From Bacillota bacterium (GTDB taxonomy: Bacteria; Bacillota; Limnochordia; DTU087), in assembly GCA_012510855.1 (NCBI GenBank), contig JAAZHE010000086.1:1-39098 (forward strand): a DNA stretch of 39,098 bases, given 5' to 3'. The notes beneath the pieces are model-generated. The model saw only the letters and a list, made by a program, of their open reading frames with translations. It searched no databases and had not been told where the DNA came from. Positions 1 through 8,991 of the stretch are shown one piece after another (the first letter of the stretch is position 1; each line of letters opens with the position of its first letter). Both the position numbers and the translations under genes were made by a program.

Positions 1-500
1 AACTCGATGGCCCAATCTAAGTAGGGCTCTTCCACTAAGAAATCTCCCCGGTATAGTTCTAGACTGCTTCGAAAGGCATCAATGGCTGCTTCTGGGTCGG
101 TCTTCTCCAGCTTCCTGCCTTCTGTATAAAGCCGCTCGAATTCTTCGGTATCTACCCAGCATTCAGGTGTATTTTCCAAGCAATAAAGGCCTCCAGAGCA
201 AGTAAGGAGATTGGATTTGGCATAACGTTTAAGATCCGGATCAATAATCCGCCGGACGAAATGGACACAGGTATGTAGGTTTTGCTCAGTTGAGGCATCT
301 AGATCGGTATCGGGCCAAAGCAGCTCATTTAATACGTCCTTAGGGACCTTTTCACCCCGCCGTGAGGCTAAGTACCGAAAAAGATTAAGAGCTTTTTTAG
401 ATTTCCACTGAGATACTGGAACCTCTTTGGAATTGACTTCCAAGGCAAATGGTCCCAAAAACCAGACTTTCAACCGAGTCCGAGGCGAGTCTGATAGCAT
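1..500 (-). CDS. SARP/BTAD-family transcriptional regulator, N-terminal part (cut by window edge)
   Basis: This gene is not in the ORF track because it runs off the window. Reading the minus strand from ATG at 500 gives an open frame of 166 codons to the edge. The start has a good ribosome site, AGGAGGGG, 8 nt upstream. The first ~95 residues look like the winged-helix DNA-binding domain of SARP/AfsR-type regulators (KVWFLGPFALEV, then WKSKKALNLFRYLASRRGE and ELLWPD). The remainder, with EFERLY and ELYRGDFL, matches the start of a BTAD tetratricopeptide-like domain. It lies 40 nt after the stop of the barrel-like protein gene on the same strand, so it is probably the last or a late gene of the secretin operon and may regulate it. 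Any C-terminal sensor or ATPase domain is outside the window. The family call is secure; the target is inferred. Confidence 0.82.
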   Translation of the reverse strand, partial: MLSDSPRTRLKVWFLGPFALEVNSKEVPVSQWKSKKALNLFRYLASRRGEKVPKDVLNELLWPDTDLDASTEQNLHTCVHFVRRIIDPDLKRYAKSNLLTCSGGLYCLENTPECWVDTEEFERLYTEGRKLEKTDPEAAIDAFRSSLELYRGDFLVEEPYLDWAIE

Positions 501-540
501 AGATCAGCCCCTCCTAAGCTGACGTACTGCATCTTGCGGC

Positions 541-1863
541 TTAATCTATCAAGAAGACTAAGCCCAAAGTGTACACTGACTCCTTCGTCGGCAGCTGGGC
601 ACAGTGGAGACTGATGCCGGCTTGAGCACCAGCGCTTCGCATAACCGCCAGTTCATGTCCTAGCTCACCGCTATCGTAGGTTAAGTCATATCGGAATCGC
701 CAGTTTTCCAAAGCTAAAGCAGCACTGCACCGCAGCCACGCTGACTCAACAAAGCGCCCTTCTTTAGGAGCATAGGCGATGGGTAAATACACCGCCTCAA
801 CTTCTACGTCGCCCCACTGCACTTCGTCGGATACTCCGCACCGAATCAGTGGGTCACTACCCTCCCTTTGGTCTATATGAACGGCGAATCCCAATTCTCC
901 CAATACGGCCCAGGCTCCGCCTATCCTGTAAGACAGACTTCCGGGAAAGGCTTCAGCTACAGCGTCTAACCTATATTTGTCCCCCTTAAGCAGCACACCG
1001 CCCCTTGTCCCGACTTCGCCCTCCATGAGGCCTACGCCCATCCAAACCTCGCCTTGGGTTCCTGCTTGTCCCCGGGTCCGAGCCATCAGCTCCTGAAGAC
1101 CCTTGATGGTTCCAATGGAGACTACAGGTCCCTGTTCTGCCAAAGCCCTCGGGCTCATGATCTCAGCACCGGCGAAGAGGGCAAAGTACCTTCTTGCCTG
1201 TTCCTTGGTGTACTTCAGATTTTGAACTAGGACTGCCAGGGGCCGGTGCTTCTCGGCAGAAAGCCAGTCTGTAATCCGGACATTGCCTAAAGCATTGGCA
1301 GGGCTTCCGTATTCCAGTTCGATGTCCGTTAGGACTCCGCTATCTGGATCGCCGTAGTACCTGGGCGTTAAGGTAATCCTCAGTCCATATTCCGCTTCCT
1401 CTTCCCGGGCAGCGGCTATCTTATCTTCTGCGACTTCTATAGAAACAGGCTGGTCACCCATGGTGACCAACCAAGTCTTGTATTCAAAGGCCGTCGCTGA
1501 GCCGGCATGCTTCCCCCGTAGCCCCACAGTGAAAGCGGCAGGAAAATCTCCTACCAGGTTCAAGAGGGCATCATCGGTAATAATTGTATAGCCGCCCTGG
1601 ACATCTTCTTCTCTTGCGTATTCGGCACTAGCCTCGATGATTTTTCCCATTTCATAACGCAGTTCAAAGAGGCTCAGCTCGTATACAATCACCGGCTCCT
1701 CCTTGGGAGCCGGAAGCTCCTCCCAGCCCGGAGCCGTAAGCTGCCTGGGTGCCTCATCGAGATCTACCTCTGCTGCTAATACGCTCAGGGTGCCGCCGGC
1801 CACGGCAGCACCGCAGAGTAAGAAAACAAGGAACAATACTATCCGTTTTTGTTGTTCGGTCAC
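541..1863 (-). CDS. Secreted protein with beta-barrel-like C-terminal half, unknown function
   Basis: A 440-residue protein with a GTG start preceded by GGGGAGG at 9 nt. The first ~30 residues form a hydrophobic signal segment ending in VLAAE, consistent with export. The central part is mixed charged sequence. The last ~150 residues alternate hydrophobic and polar residues in short strands (YRIGGAWAVLGELGFAVHI, WRFRYDLTY) and the protein ends in a hydrophobic strand, LVFLID, as many outer-membrane barrels do. The gene follows the secretin gene by 15 nt, so the two are almost surely co-transcribed. I recognise no named family. A barrel or surface role is an inference from strand pattern and from the secretin neighbour; a soluble periplasmic beta protein remains possible. 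Confidence 0.7.
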   Translation of the reverse strand: MTEQQKRIVLFLVFLLCGAAVAGGTLSVLAAEVDLDEAPRQLTAPGWEELPAPKEEPVIVYELSLFELRYEMGKIIEASAEYAREEDVQGGYTIITDDALLNLVGDFPAAFTVGLRGKHAGSATAFEYKTWLVTMGDQPVSIEVAEDKIAAAREEEAEYGLRITLTPRYYGDPDSGVLTDIELEYGSPANALGNVRITDWLSAEKHRPLAVLVQNLKYTKEQARRYFALFAGAEIMSPRALAEQGPVVSIGTIKGLQELMARTRGQAGTQGEVWMGVGLMEGEVGTRGGVLLKGDKYRLDAVAEAFPGSLSYRIGGAWAVLGELGFAVHIDQREGSDPLIRCGVSDEVQWGDVEVEAVYLPIAYAPKEGRFVESAWLRCSAALALENWRFRYDLTYDSGELGHELAVMRSAGAQAGISLHCAQLPTKESVYTLGLVFLID

Positions 1864-1878
1864 CTGTGCCTACCTCCC

Positions 1879-3087
1879 CTATTGGATGACAGGGGTGACA
1901 AATACGAGGACTTCCCGATCGCCCTCCCGCTTGATATCATTTCTAAACAGCCAGCGGATGATTGGTATATCCCCGAGGATCGGCACTTTCCGAGATAAGT
2001 TGTAAAAGTCCTGCATAGTCATACCTGCCAACACCGCCGTCTGGCCGTTGGCCAGCCGCACTGTAGTTGATACGGCATTCCGCTTGACAACCAGATCGGG
2101 CCTTGCTTCACTGACAAAATGGCTGACCTCGGGGGCCAGGTTAAGGAGTATATGATCATCCGGCAGGATAGTCGGAGTGACTTTGAGAACGACTCCTACC
2201 TCAACCCTTTCAATCCGGGATGTTTCATCTTCATCTGCTTGGATAGGCAGAATCTGCAGATCACCGATAAACAGCTCCGCGGTTTCCCGATCCGCAACTA
2301 GCACCCGGGGGTCGGCGTGGATTTCGGCTTCTTGTTTTTGTTCCAGCATTCTGAGTTCAGTTATAAGATCGCCCCAGATGTTGGTCTCCAAAGATAGAGC
2401 CCCGCCACTATAACCAATGGTCCCATACCAGCTATCATTGACACTCTGCCCTTTGTTAACGGTGAACTCACTCAAGATACCGTTCCCCAACTCTTTTAAT
2501 GCTGAGGACGACACCTCGGTTACCAGCACCTTGATCTCCACAGTCCTGCGGGGTGTGTCGATCTGATTGATCAAGTTCTTAATCCTCTCCAGCTCCAGAG
2601 GCGGTGCCGAGATGGTGAGAATGTTCCCTCCCGGGGTTCCTCTTACGTATGAAGTCAAGAAGGTTGGAAGCTGCTCAATGACTTCCTGTGCAGTTACATT
2701 ATTCAGACGGATGATTTCAGTCTCCACCAAGGCACTAAAAGTAGTATTCCGGGGATCAGGAAGGCCCACTATGTAATAGTCATCCACCTTGCGGAAGGAA
2801 AGACCTCCCGTAAAGAGAATCATCCTCAAGGCCTTTTCCAATGGTACATCCTGAAGATCCGCAGTTACCTGACCGCTCACAGTCTGATCAGCAATAATAG
2901 TCACGCCAGTCTGCAAAGAGATTTCATTGAGGGCCTCCCTGAGATCTGTTTCAAATAACATGATATTAACCAGAGGTTCATCTTCTTCCTGAGCAAAGCC
3001 GACTCCGCCAACCAAGAGCACTAACACCACTGTCCACAAACACGCTGTCAACTGCCAGTTACCTTTTCCCACTTTTCTACCCCCCAC
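1879..3087 (-). CDS. Secretin (GspD/PilQ-type outer-membrane channel protein)
   Basis: A 402-residue exported protein. A signal peptide ends near VGFAQEEDEP. Residues ~40-110 form an STN/N0-like domain (ETDLREALNEISLQTGVTI, then DVPLEKALRMIL). Residues ~120-190 form an N1/N3-like secretin repeat (EIIRLNNVTAQEVIEQL, ending LINQIDTPRR). The C-terminal ~200 residues are the secretin gate and barrel, with VGVVLKVTPTI and the family-typical ending VPILGDIPIIRWLFR ... EVLVFVTPVI. The protein is short, with only two periplasmic repeats, closer to PilQ-like or stand-alone secretins than to full GspD. No ATPase, pseudopilin or inner-membrane platform gene is in the window. A secretin implies an outer membrane. 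GTG start at 3087; a second GTG five codons downstream is also possible. Confidence 0.9.
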   Translation of the reverse strand: MGGRKVGKGNWQLTACLWTVVLVLLVGGVGFAQEEDEPLVNIMLFETDLREALNEISLQTGVTIIADQTVSGQVTADLQDVPLEKALRMILFTGGLSFRKVDDYYIVGLPDPRNTTFSALVETEIIRLNNVTAQEVIEQLPTFLTSYVRGTPGGNILTISAPPLELERIKNLINQIDTPRRTVEIKVLVTEVSSSALKELGNGILSEFTVNKGQSVNDSWYGTIGYSGGALSLETNIWGDLITELRMLEQKQEAEIHADPRVLVADRETAELFIGDLQILPIQADEDETSRIERVEVGVVLKVTPTILPDDHILLNLAPEVSHFVSEARPDLVVKRNAVSTTVRLANGQTAVLAGMTMQDFYNLSRKVPILGDIPIIRWLFRNDIKREGDREVLVFVTPVIQ

Positions 3088-3123
3088 AGTTTACCCCAAC
3101 AAGTTGCAAACAGTCCAAGTTCT

Positions 3124-3666
3124 TTACCCCGTCAACGGTACTACAGTGTAAACGATGGTTCCCCTATACGTCCCAGGGGTGTCCATCCACGTTGCCAAAA
3201 GCTGAACATCCATCCTGAGGATGTTCCTTCCCGCAGTTTGACTGGAAAATACAGGTTCTCCTGTAGCATCCCTAGTTCTAAGGGTATGCCAGGGGCTCTC
3301 ACCGGCAGAACCAATTAGCCTAAACCCCATTTGGGAACTAGGCAGGCTTGTGCCGTTGGGCCCTTGAAAGGCTTCGTCGGCTGCTGAGATATATAAAGCA
3401 TGGGGCACATTACCGGCAACTTCGATCTGCACCGCGTCCGTCTTTGAGGCTAAGATGCCTTCCTCCAGCATCACAGCATCTTTGGTGGTGTCAAAATCTT
3501 CTTCAGTAAAGACTAGCTCGGAAGTATTGACACGTACCAAGAGCATTTGGGGTATGGTGACAATTACCTGGATCTCAGCCCTATCCAATACTTGGGCATT
3601 GGCGGGACAGACGCCGAACAAGAACACCAACAACAGCCAAACAATTATCCACTTACGGCCATTCAT
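3124..3666 (-). CDS. Secreted beta-sandwich (pilin/WxL-like) protein, unknown function
   Basis: The ORF track starts at 3735, but the internal ATG at 3666 has a GAAGGGG ribosome site about 7 nt upstream and opens directly into a signal peptide (NGRKWIIVWLLLVFLFG, cleavage near ANA), so I choose it; this gives 180 residues. The mature part is predicted all-beta, with no cysteines after the signal peptide, and ends in the strand motif PGTYRGTIVYTVVPL, which resembles the last strand of pilin-like, spore-coat-U-like or WxL domains. It is the first gene of the secretin row (36 nt before the secretin) and so may be a substrate or surface subunit. The family is not recognised with certainty. Confidence 0.65.
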   Translation of the reverse strand: MNGRKWIIVWLLLVFLFGVCPANAQVLDRAEIQVIVTIPQMLLVRVNTSELVFTEEDFDTTKDAVMLEEGILASKTDAVQIEVAGNVPHALYISAADEAFQGPNGTSLPSSQMGFRLIGSAGESPWHTLRTRDATGEPVFSSQTAGRNILRMDVQLLATWMDTPGTYRGTIVYTVVPLTG

Positions 3667-3856
3667 AGGGCACCCCTTCTTATTCGCAATTTTCTCCCTT
3701 GGTTGTCTGTTTCCTCTTTTTCCTAGCCCAATCATAGAAATAAATTCTCAAAAACAAATCAAAGCGTGGTAAGACTTTAAGGACTCATATCAAGACAAGG
3801 CATGGCGGAGAGGGAAGTAGCGAGGTCTAGAGGGAGATTACCGGAGAAGGCGCTGC

Positions 3857-3888
3857 AAACAAAAGGGAGAGCTCTCCACTCTCCCTTT
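3857..3888 (-). terminator. Rho-independent terminator after glnS
   Basis: A perfect 10-bp stem (AAAGGGAGAG paired with CTCTCCCTTT) with a 7-nt loop is followed on the minus strand by TTTTGTTT. It lies ~110 nt after the glnS stop and isolates glnS from the secretin operon. Confidence 0.8.
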
Positions 3889-4001
3889 ACTGTTCCAACG
3901 ACTTATCTTATATTGTCGTCATATGTTTTACTGTTGGCTAGCTAGTCTCTTCCACTGTACCCTCTTAGGGCAAACGGCAACCCATTTTGAGGATAGCGAG
4001 A

Positions 4002-6020: not shown

Positions 6021-7184
6021 TCAATAGGTACACTTCCTGGCCTCATCGGTAAAGGCTGCGAGCAACTCTAAATCAGCATCGAAAAAGTGATCCGAGGGAG
6101 CCAGGATATAGCCGCCGTTCTCTCCAGCGGCTTCAAAGCACCGCCTGACCGCCTTCCTCGTCTCTTCAGGTGTACATCCCACAAAGTAGTGATACTGGTC
6201 AAACCCGCCGATCATGCACACCCGATGGCCGATGCGGCGCTTAGCCTCTGCCAAATCTACATCTCCACCCATTGCCGGCGGCGTAAATGTCTCCATGGCA
6301 TCGGGATTCATGTCAGCAATCATTTCTAGGATGGGCATCATCCCGCCGCATGTATGATAAACCACCCGCTGACCTACTTCGTGTATGAGGCCGATAAGCT
6401 CGCTATCATAGGGAGCCACAAACTCCTCGAAAATCTTAGGCGAGATAACCGTCGTTGAGGCATCTCCGCCCCCTAACTCCAAAAGATCGAACTTAGCTCC
6501 CGCCAGGGATCGGATGTACTCCTTCTTTCTATTTTGGAGTATGCTGAGGAATTCATGCACCCACTTTGGGTCATCGTAAGTTGCATAAATGAGATTTTCG
6601 ATGCCGTACAGACATGCTGCATCTTGCCAACAGCCGGGTTGTCCAAAAACATCGAAGGTGGCAATATGACCGCGCACAATCCCCCGATCGCCCCGTTCCG
6701 CTGCGATCCTGTTAACCTCATCGATGTCGCATTTTGGGTAGGTCATGTATTGGAGCAGTTCAATGTCCTTTTTTTCCTTGATCGGATACTCAGTCACCAT
6801 GGTGGATTTATCATCGGTCTTGACCACCATTTGCAGACTACCCTTGGGTGTGACAAAGGTATACCGCTCCACTGTGAACCAAGGATCGGGGAGCTCCTCC
6901 CGTTCAATTCGCCACTGGTCACTGACCACCCGGCGGGGTTCGAGAAAACCGGTGGTGCTTTTCTGATTGGGATCATAGTACTCGCCCCGGGATGGATCCG
7001 GCTTGTAAGCAACTACCCAAGCAATGGGGTCAAAGCCGAAACGCTCGAAAAAATCATCATTGGTATAGCCCGGCAGGTACTTGTCAAGAAAGTAGGGCAT
7101 AACATGATGGGTGGTAACCGGCAGCCGGTCGGGCACTCCGCCCGCAAGTGCCGTCAGCATCCTTTCCCTGGAAGTCATGGCCAT
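6021..7184 (-). CDS. URO-D-fold protein (uroporphyrinogen decarboxylase / methyltransferase superfamily), module A
   Basis: A 387-residue member of the URO-D/MtaA superfamily of TIM-barrel proteins. The N-terminus (SRERMLTALAGGVPDRLPV) is the family start motif. The barrel metal motif is HTCGG at residues 277-281, as in corrinoid methyltransferases that bind zinc with H-x-C. The third ligand position near the C-terminus, normally Cys in APGCG-type motifs, reads APSDH, so it is Asp (~365). ATG start with GGGGGG 8 nt upstream. It is the last gene of the module after the CUT2 permease (18 nt gap), which points to action on the imported compound or a derivative. No heme or corrinoid gene is nearby, so true HemE function is unlikely. 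The substrate is unknown. Confidence 0.85.
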   Translation of the reverse strand: MAMTSRERMLTALAGGVPDRLPVTTHHVMPYFLDKYLPGYTNDDFFERFGFDPIAWVVAYKPDPSRGEYYDPNQKSTTGFLEPRRVVSDQWRIEREELPDPWFTVERYTFVTPKGSLQMVVKTDDKSTMVTEYPIKEKKDIELLQYMTYPKCDIDEVNRIAAERGDRGIVRGHIATFDVFGQPGCWQDAACLYGIENLIYATYDDPKWVHEFLSILQNRKKEYIRSLAGAKFDLLELGGGDASTTVISPKIFEEFVAPYDSELIGLIHEVGQRVVYHTCGGMMPILEMIADMNPDAMETFTPPAMGGDVDLAEAKRRIGHRVCMIGGFDQYHYFVGCTPEETRKAVRRCFEAAGENGGYILAPSDHFFDADLELLAAFTDEARKCTY

Positions 7185-7202
7185 TACTAAATCCCCCCAG
7201 CA

Positions 7203-8231
7203 CTAAGCGGTTTGGAGAATCCTATCCCTGAAGTAATTCCTTGTCTTGTTGATGACGATTGCCACTACAACCAACAGACCGAAAATCACCCGCCGCAGAT
7301 ACGGATTCACATTGAACATGGACAAACCTGCTTCTACCAGGGCCAGGAAGATGATTCCTGCCAAAACGTTGATGATGGACCCCCGTCCACCCTGCTGCTC
7401 GATACCGCCGATAATGGCACCGGCAAAGGCCATGAAGATGTCTCCATCAGCCATACTTGGGGGGACCGAGTGTAGGTAGCCCGTATAGAAAAGTGCAGCC
7501 AGTCCTGCAAATCCACCTGCCAGTGAGAAGGTAAAGAAAGTGATTCGGGCAGGGTTAAGGCCCAACATCGCTGCTGACCGCTTGTTACCGCCTACAGCGT
7601 AAATATGAAGCCCGAAGGGTGTGTACTTGAGAATAAATGCCACTAGCAAGATGAATGCAAAGAAAAGCGGAACTGCGTTGGACGGGTCGCGCCCAATCGC
7701 CATATAAAGCTTTGGAAAACCACTGTAAATCGGATATGAATGGAGAAGTAAAGTTCCGCCTTCATAGGCCATGAAAGCTCCCAGAGTTGCTAGAAATGGA
7801 TTAAGACCGAGATAGCCCACCATGTAACCATTAATTGCGCCTCCGATGAATCCAAGGACCACTGGAATAAGGACGCAAAGAACTGGATGGATGCCTGGAA
7901 ACCACTTGGTGATGATCATGGCACTCAACATGGCAATGAAACCGGTCATCTCCGCCAGTGACAAGTCCATGGCCCCTAAGAGCTGACACAAGGACACTCC
8001 CACTACGATAAAGCCCAGGGGGATGGAGGAGTAGAGCATAAAGGAAAGTGTACTCAGCTTGAGCATTCCCTCGGGTCGCAGGATAGCAAAAATCGTGTAA
8101 AAGACGATGATCAATACCCAAGCGAGATTATCTACAAAAAGAAGCTGAAGTCTTTTCTTATCCCACCGCGGGCGTACTTCCGGCCCTTTTACTACTGATC
8201 CAACTGCGGCGTTTTGCACCCTACCCGACAT
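7203..8231 (-). CDS. Ribose-type (CUT2) sugar ABC transporter permease
   Basis: Inner-membrane permease of the RbsC/BPD_transp_2 family, about 342 residues and very hydrophobic, with several membrane segments (LGFIVVGVSLCQLLGAMDL, GAINGYMVGYLGLNPFLATL). The family motif region ALFYTGYLHS ... GAIIGGIEQQGGRGSI is present. The track start at 8258 lies inside the ATPase gene; the internal ATG at 8231 has AGGAGG 7-8 nt upstream and leaves an 11-nt overlap, so I prefer it. It works with the ATPase and binding protein upstream to import a sugar or similar solute. Confidence 0.9.
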   Translation of the reverse strand: MSGRVQNAAVGSVVKGPEVRPRWDKKRLQLLFVDNLAWVLIIVFYTIFAILRPEGMLKLSTLSFMLYSSIPLGFIVVGVSLCQLLGAMDLSLAEMTGFIAMLSAMIITKWFPGIHPVLCVLIPVVLGFIGGAINGYMVGYLGLNPFLATLGAFMAYEGGTLLLHSYPIYSGFPKLYMAIGRDPSNAVPLFFAFILLVAFILKYTPFGLHIYAVGGNKRSAAMLGLNPARITFFTFSLAGGFAGLAALFYTGYLHSVPPSMADGDIFMAFAGAIIGGIEQQGGRGSIINVLAGIIFLALVEAGLSMFNVNPYLRRVIFGLLVVVAIVINKTRNYFRDRILQTA

Positions 8232-8991
8232 GTCTCTTTCCTCCTTCTCCTGCACCATCGGCCAAGAGATCCTCTATTTCCTCCCGGCTGATCTCATCTT
8301 TGTGGACATCGAGAACCTTCTTGCCGTGAGAAATAAGAACTATTCTGTCGACAACTGCGTAGATCTGGCCCATATTGTGGGATATGAGAATGACGCTGAT
8401 GCCATTATCCCTGAGCTGTTCTATAAATGATAACACTTTCTTCTGAGCTTCAACTGAAAGGGCATTAGTTGGCTCATCGAGAATCACCATTTTTGCCTTG
8501 AAGTACATGGCCCGGGCAATGGCAACCCCTTGGCGCTCACCACCAGAGCAGAATCGAATTTCATGGTCCAGAGAAGGTACAGAAAGACCCATCTGCTGCA
8601 GCAAGGGTGCCACAATCTCCTTCATTGCTCGAAAGTCAAGAATCCGCAAGGGGCCAACCTGCTTGCAAATCTCACGTCCCATGAACACATTCTTAACGAT
8701 GCTTAGCTGATCAAAAACAGCTTGTTCCTGGTAAACTGCTTCAATTCCTAAGGCCCGGGAGTCTTTTATGGATTTGATCTTTACCTCTTCACCATTCCAG
8801 TAAAACTTGCCCGAGGTGGCTGGACTTACTCCAATGATGGTCTTAATGAGGGTCGACTTGCCGGCACCATTATTGCCCAGCAGGCCTACAACTTCCCCCT
8901 TGTGAACATCCATACTGACTCCTCTGACCGCATGTACATGACCGTAACGCTTGTGTACATCCTCCAAACGGAGCAGCGGCACTTTACCCAT
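8221..8991 (-). CDS. Sugar ABC transporter ATPase, single-domain CUT2 type
   Basis: A 256-residue ATP-binding subunit. Walker A is GNNGAGKST (~residue 38), the signature is CSGGERQGVAIARA, Walker B is MVILDEPTNALS, and the H-loop is VILISHN. Most ribose-type importers use a fused two-domain ATPase of ~500 residues; this is the one-domain form known from FrcA-like systems, which would work as a homodimer. ATG start with GGAG 8 nt upstream. It overlaps the permease gene by 11 nt, indicating translational coupling. Confidence 0.92.
   Translation of the reverse strand: MGKVPLLRLEDVHKRYGHVHAVRGVSMDVHKGEVVGLLGNNGAGKSTLIKTIIGVSPATSGKFYWNGEEVKIKSIKDSRALGIEAVYQEQAVFDQLSIVKNVFMGREICKQVGPLRILDFRAMKEIVAPLLQQMGLSVPSLDHEIRFCSGGERQGVAIARAMYFKAKMVILDEPTNALSVEAQKKVLSFIEQLRDNGISVILISHNMGQIYAVVDRIVLISHGKKVLDVHKDEISREEIEDLLADGAGEGGKRHVG

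Follow-up and report, generated by a model that had tools for sequence, protein, structure and literature searches.

A short secretin and its secreted partners in Limnochordia: a candidate surface-export operon of outer-membrane-bearing Bacillota

Secretins are components of type II secretion systems (T2SS), type IV pili (T4P), Tad pili, type III secretion systems (T3SS) and filamentous phages. Here we analyse a secretin locus on a 39,098-nucleotide contig (JAAZHE010000086.1, assembly GCA_012510855.1) of a Bacillota bacterium in the class Limnochordia; this whole stretch is referred to as the window. Positions 3-3735 hold four co-directional minus-strand open reading frames (ORFs), which encode a small secreted protein (P180), a short secretin (SEC), a secreted protein of no known family (P440) and the N-terminal part of a SARP/BTAD transcription regulator (Table 1). 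We propose, with a probability of roughly 0.55, that these ORFs make up the first half of an ATP-independent system dedicated to the export of a surface fibre (or surface coat) in Bacillota bearing an outer membrane.

SEC belongs to the same superfamily as the secretins of T4P, T2SS and Tad machines, but it falls in a clade of its own and its operon lacks platform, ATPase and prepilin genes. The surveys consulted place the secretins of diderm Firmicutes only in T4P, Tad or T2SS (PMC5007114, PMC6668835, PMC4793230). The open-access literature, searched for orphan secretins, Limnochordia secretins and secretins combined with WxL or spore coat proteins, yielded no prior description of such a system.

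Other likenesses lie in the secreted partners. With the archaic (Csu/sigma-type) chaperone-usher pili, the locus shares small Sec-secreted beta-sandwich subunits that are predicted to carry an alternating N-terminal strand, a C-terminal strand resembling AGxYxDTxxVTV (CsuE is the best PDB match of one subunit family, c8/c18), and the need for an outer-membrane conduit without an ATPase (PMC9452303). It differs in having a secretin and a barrel-like protein instead of an usher, and in that its immunoglobulin (Ig)-repeat protein, c2, is not detectably a homologue of PapD. In the WxL/WxLIP (DUF916-DUF3324) clusters, too, an Ig-repeat protein is encoded together with small, beta-rich proteins of the cell surface, and c2 has a weak WxLIP_PGBD match in its first domain; here, however, the genomes encode an outer membrane, a secretin and an outer-membrane protein (OMP)-like protein, and no WxL domain was detected in the subunits. 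TasA-TapA fibres and the archaeal threads and bundling pili resemble the locus in the remote matches of P180 to filament subunits and in their donor-strand logic (PMC9674648), but no SipW or TapA was seen in the operon, and export here requires exit through an outer membrane.

Gene content and conservation of the operon

The window is a complete contig (C185 of genome G000) whose left end breaks inside the SARP gene. The gene stops at residue 166 in the window and continues from residue 170 on another contig of the same genome (C55), where it is followed by c3, c8, c2 and c9. The unbroken order P180-secretin-P440-SARP-c3-c8-c2-c9 is found in two genomes of the same genus (L037 and L038) and one of the same family (L039); the locus is therefore an eight-gene operon, half of which lies in the window. 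An earlier note, made from the letters of the window alone, had described four tightly packed genes on one strand and proposed a leftward extension and a search for the same gene order. The packing is real, as ORFs, Pfam matches and intergenic gaps of 36, 15 and 40 bp (P180/SEC/P440/SARP) attest, and both proposals have now been carried out, but its term 'minimal' does not suit a system of eight genes. Nor is the SARP regulator a defining part, since many relatives lack the gene.

Across the class, c2 is present in 55 of 73 genomes. Of 74 secretin loci, 65 have c2 at a distance of at most 5 kb; among the nine without a nearby c2, eight, the window included, are at contig ends, and the ninth (L158) has a different, PilQ-like secretin. 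The window represents the type 1 layout. An intermediate layout runs c3-c8-c2-SEC-P440, and in type 2 two secreted proteins of ~350 and ~250 amino acids (aa) precede c2, SEC and a protein of 240-300 aa whose C-terminus is OMP-like. The core is a ~400-aa secretin, c2, a barrel-like protein after the secretin, and one to four small secreted beta-sandwich proteins (P180, c3, c8/c18, c9). The cluster itself is free of ATPase, platform and type IV prepilin genes. In fragmentary assemblies, gene calling relied on simple ORF rules. In two genomes (L118 of G267 and L119 of G243) the c2-SEC unit is duplicated in tandem, the second secretin copy being shorter with a diverged C-terminus.

A survey of the phylum at a secretin threshold of E <= 1e-60 recovered SEC in 42 of 399 genomes, drawn from 20 families, and 39 of these 42 also have a c2 match. 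All 42 encode Omp85, compared with 103 of the 399 genomes overall (Fisher p = 1e-28); the test ignores phylogeny, so this p-value overstates the evidence, yet there are zero exceptions among the 42. The system is an outer-membrane system. Cultivated Limnochordia are diderm (PMC11456536), and a surface or export system of diderm Bacillota, as the earlier note had suggested, is upheld as probable.

Secreted partners and a proposed assembly route

P180 has a signal peptide followed by a hydrophobic alternating N-terminal segment, AEIQVIVTI, and ends in the C-terminal strand PGTYRGTIVYTV. Alternating hydrophobic segments at the N-terminus are typical of donor strands. Among 92 subunits, 59% reach an N-terminal alternation score of at least 8, against 22% of shuffles. 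Of the structure predictions that the earlier note had called for, that of P180 gave a confident AlphaFold2 model (pLDDT 83.8, pTM 0.77) and that of P440 failed. In a Foldseek search with the P180 model, the best matches were GH123 beta-sandwich domains, followed by chains of TLP-1, the Sulfolobus 0406 filament, FimG, CfaE, PapA and CsuA/B. P180, c3 and c8/c18 are mutually related (hhalign 96-98%). Compared with PDB sequences, the c8/c18 profile has CsuE as its best, albeit weak, match (E = 0.0023) over the CsuE C-terminal domain, with the C-terminal strands aligned as AGeYkgTVTlTV/AGTYQDTVTVQV; the P180 and c3 profiles gave no convincing match. P180, c3, c8 and c9 look like fibre subunits of the donor-strand type, although this is a prediction. 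The earlier note had reported no pilin in view, which is right for type IV prepilins but may not hold for subunits of this kind.

The Ig-repeat partner c2 is a secreted protein of about 510-550 aa. Type 2 members match fn3_5 (11/11), NPCBM_assoc (7/11) and WxLIP_PGBD (6/11); the last is a weak match to the first domain (best E = 8e-5), and generic Ig-like matches score equally well or better. The c2 profile found no match among PDB sequences. c2 may act as a base or anchor or, by analogy, as a chaperone. A PapD-like motif noticed by eye, RYAVRLNIRVERPG, had suggested a PapD chaperone homologue, an assignment that was dropped when profile comparison did not support it. A guess from gene order that c3 and c2 are dusB and lysS was wrong: no Pfam match backed it, and both are secreted proteins.

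Terminal phenylalanine is typical of outer-membrane barrels. The gene 3' of SEC encodes a protein ending in this residue in 34 of 66 cases, compared with 8% of background genes, and many C-termini in the P440 family alignment read GIRLKF or GVRFSF. This beta-signal with a terminal aromatic is a trend of the family, and P440 of the window itself ends in FLID, with the phenylalanine three residues before the end. The P440 profile had no match among PDB sequences, and a search of 101 genomes detected P440-like proteins in 33. Judging from its sequence, P440 is predicted to have a C-terminal outer-membrane barrel and an N-terminal periplasmic part. Longer P440-like proteins of ~560 aa occur at L066:2579-4261, L068:2188-3873 and L090:6784-8472; in those of L066 and L090 the barrel-like protein is fused at its N-terminus to an STN domain, a periplasmic domain of the secretin type.

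We put at about even the odds of a more specific form of the proposal, a secretin-based donor-strand fibre pathway that would be the diderm-Bacillota counterpart of chaperone-usher assembly, with neither ATPase nor usher. The subunits and c2 would reach the periplasm via Sec, where c2 might hold the subunits in an assembly-competent state or anchor the base of the fibre. The SEC channel would serve as the subunit exit, taking the place of the usher, and P440 or the small OMP-like protein may be its outer-membrane partner that guides, gates or anchors the fibre. Outside the cell, donor-strand complementation would follow, the alternating N-terminal strand of one subunit filling the groove of its neighbour. 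Export would then be powered by folding and assembly, not by an ATPase in the cytoplasm. SARP, where present, would control expression. There is precedent for donor-strand-driven assembly and secretion without ATP in archaic chaperone-usher pili (PMC9452303), and for an accessory protein that aids donor-strand fibres in TapA, which does so for TasA (PMC10151520, PMC9674648). Fibre assembly is proposed by analogy with these systems, and its polymerisation step draws on weak fold similarity. If the proposal is correct, this would be the first secretin machine beyond the T2SS/T4P/Tad, T3SS and filamentous-phage families, and candidate functions would be at hand for several protein families that Pfam does not cover. 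A widespread secretin clade with pilin-like and Ig-repeat partners, occurring in genomes where none of these machines was detected, suggests another solution to outer-membrane crossing, and the system could supply surface appendages to lineages near the diderm-monoderm transition in Firmicutes.

Several observations weigh against this proposal. The fold similarity of P180 is weak (template-modelling score at most 0.54 overall), and its top matches are enzyme domains of the GH123 type, not pilins. N-terminal alternation is enriched in the subunits yet not universal, and the mature ends were assigned by a crude rule. Profile comparison of c2 with nine PapD-type chaperones of E. coli K-12 gave hhalign probabilities of 0.5 and 2.4%, with a shallow profile that may miss remote kinship, so a chaperone role for c2 is suggested by analogy only. 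The AlphaFold2 model of P440, built from four sequences, has a pLDDT of 29, and the barrel topology is therefore based on C-termini and sequence pattern. Finally, G084 has a T4P-like cluster next to the operon, on the opposite strand, and G158 has a T2SSF pair at a distance of about 9 kb, making it possible that a machine is shared in some genomes.

The foremost alternative, to which we give roughly half the weight of the export-system proposal, is a non-fibrous coat. The secretin would then export small Ig-like or beta-sandwich proteins to decorate the cell or to bind polysaccharide, as in a WxL/WxLIP-like layer. Their anchor to peptidoglycan or to the outer membrane would be c2, and no donor-strand polymer would form. 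The WxLIP_PGBD, fn3_5 and NPCBM_assoc matches of c2 fit such an anchor, and in WxL clusters the WxLIP (DUF916/DUF3324) proteins occur together with their binding partners, small proteins of the cell surface (PMC10599100). However, no WxL domain was matched in the subunit members of A3 or A11, the subunits have the alternating N-terminal strand and the similarities of CsuE and FimG type, and the known WxL systems are those of Gram-positive bacteria and lack a secretin.

SEC, c2 and P440 could instead be an envelope tether or stabiliser, a static link between outer membrane and peptidoglycan and not an export pore, though we consider this improbable. The confinement of SEC to Omp85-positive genomes, the occurrence of c2-type domains in wall-associated proteins and the possible STN domain on P440 are in keeping with a tether. 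An export pore is favoured by the full conservation of the secretin barrel and by the several fast-diversifying secreted subunits that accompany it. The system is also patchy: with the strict threshold applied, 42 of the 103 genomes that encode Omp85 have it, and it is therefore not an envelope essential.

The secretin and its independence from known machines

SEC matches the Pfam domains Secretin (E = 5e-38), Secretin_N (6e-9) and STN (6e-7). It thus combines the features of the secretin superfamily: a PF00263 barrel over the cut-off, periplasmic N domains and a signal peptide. The whole barrel is conserved, down to its VPILGDIPIIRWLFR motif, and SEC is likely to be the outer-membrane gate of the system. 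In a maximum-likelihood tree, 34 c2-linked secretins fall on one side of a branch with support 100/98, separate from the Tad, PilQ-like and HofQ secretins and from two other secretins of G026; 10 sequences represent the secretins outside the SEC group, GspD not being among them. SEC belongs to neither the PilQ nor the CpaC clade in this tree. That SEC is INDEPENDENCE from known secretin machines is well supported by its own clade and by carriers in which no platform was detected.

Besides SEC, the genome of the window encodes two further secretins, three in all. Both are long and CpaC/RcpA-like, and they adjoin CpaB genes and Tad-type ATPases; both strong T2SSE matches in this genome lie beside these two Tad secretins. 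In three genomes with SEC and c2 (G026 and G032, each a single contig, and G019), T2SSF gave no match and any T2SSE match fell below the cut-off; SEC is the sole secretin in G032 and G019. No usher (PF00577) was detected in the 73 class genomes, although the E. coli positive control was. The earlier note was right that no secretion or pilus machine accompanies the secretin at this locus. It had also raised the possibility of a full T2SS, T4P or phage-extrusion cluster just outside the window; relatives generally have none there, and the operon runs instead into c3-c8-c2-c9. The exception is G084, one of about 40 genomes. Both the system itself and its independence from T2SS and T4P are well supported.

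A further alternative is that SEC is an orphan secretin serving a T4P, T2SS or Tad machine encoded remotely, with its neighbours incidental or minor pilins. SEC does score best as a PilQ/GspD-type profile, many carriers have T2SSE or T2SSF genes elsewhere, and a T4P-like cluster adjoins the G084 operon. Set against this are the carriers that have the operon without a platform gene, two of them without a second secretin, the position of the strong T2SSE matches beside the Tad secretins in the window's own genome, the separate SEC clade and the near-invariant partnership with c2. As a general explanation the orphan T4P/T2SS secretin was rejected in view of the separate clade and the carriers without a platform gene, and we regard it as slightly less probable even than the tether. 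Least credible by far is a pIV-like phage-extrusion secretin derived from a filamentous phage integrated in the genome or from a mobile element. The size and N0-N3-barrel layout of SEC, resembling the virion export protein 7ofh, would suit this reading. Against it, phage genes could not be recognised in the operon, the distribution is vertical-like, the neighbourhood is stable (a glutaminyl-tRNA synthetase gene lies next to it in several genomes of family f1) and the partners are Ig-like and subunit proteins.

Other secretin and pilus genes were observed in these genomes. G026 has two near-identical further secretins of 488 and 468 aa (L154:9881-11347 and L155:8881-10287), which adjoin giant secreted proteins of 1589 and 1315 aa and have no c2 nearby; as this genome has no T2SSF match at all, they are possibly another secretin-based export system. 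In the window's genome, two separate Tad/Flp loci (L057 on contig C116 and L058 on C99) encode long CpaC secretins with multiple BON domains, the C99 locus coming after FtsW/RodA, PBP2 and PASTA-kinase genes. The G084 cluster includes type IV prepilin-like and prepilin-peptidase-like genes (L110:2852-4722), and a lone prepilin-peptidase-like gene is found beside the operon in G172 (L129:10072-10854).

Regulator, operon border and neighbouring genes

In the SARP fragment of the window, BTAD is matched at 1e-5. A full 400-aa homologue matches BTAD at 2e-19, over the cut-off, and Trans_reg_C at 5e-4, below it, and so combines the OmpR-type winged helix and BTAD domain of SARP regulators. SARP was rejected as a core component, being absent in many relatives.

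Table 1. Features of the secretin locus in the window.
Feature	Position	Strand	Description
P180	ORF 3124-3735; start at 3666 gives 180 aa	minus	small secreted beta-sandwich protein
SEC, short secretin	1879..3087	minus	402 aa; STN/N0, one Secretin_N and barrel
P440	541..1863	minus	440 aa; no family; secreted; predicted C-terminal barrel and N-terminal periplasmic part
SARP/BTAD transcription regulator	3..500	minus	residues 1-166 of about 400
Stem-loop with U-rich tail	3860..3892 (approximate)	minus	between glutaminyl-tRNA synthetase gene and P180

The stem-loop upstream of P180 has a fold z of -3.5, consistent with a terminator, although the terminator scan did not list it. It is probably the upstream boundary of the operon, ending the glutaminyl-tRNA synthetase transcript. 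Further along the window, at 6021-8258, a putative uroporphyrinogen-decarboxylase/methyltransferase-like gene adjoins a putative sugar ABC transporter permease gene, both named from the impression given by their sequences.

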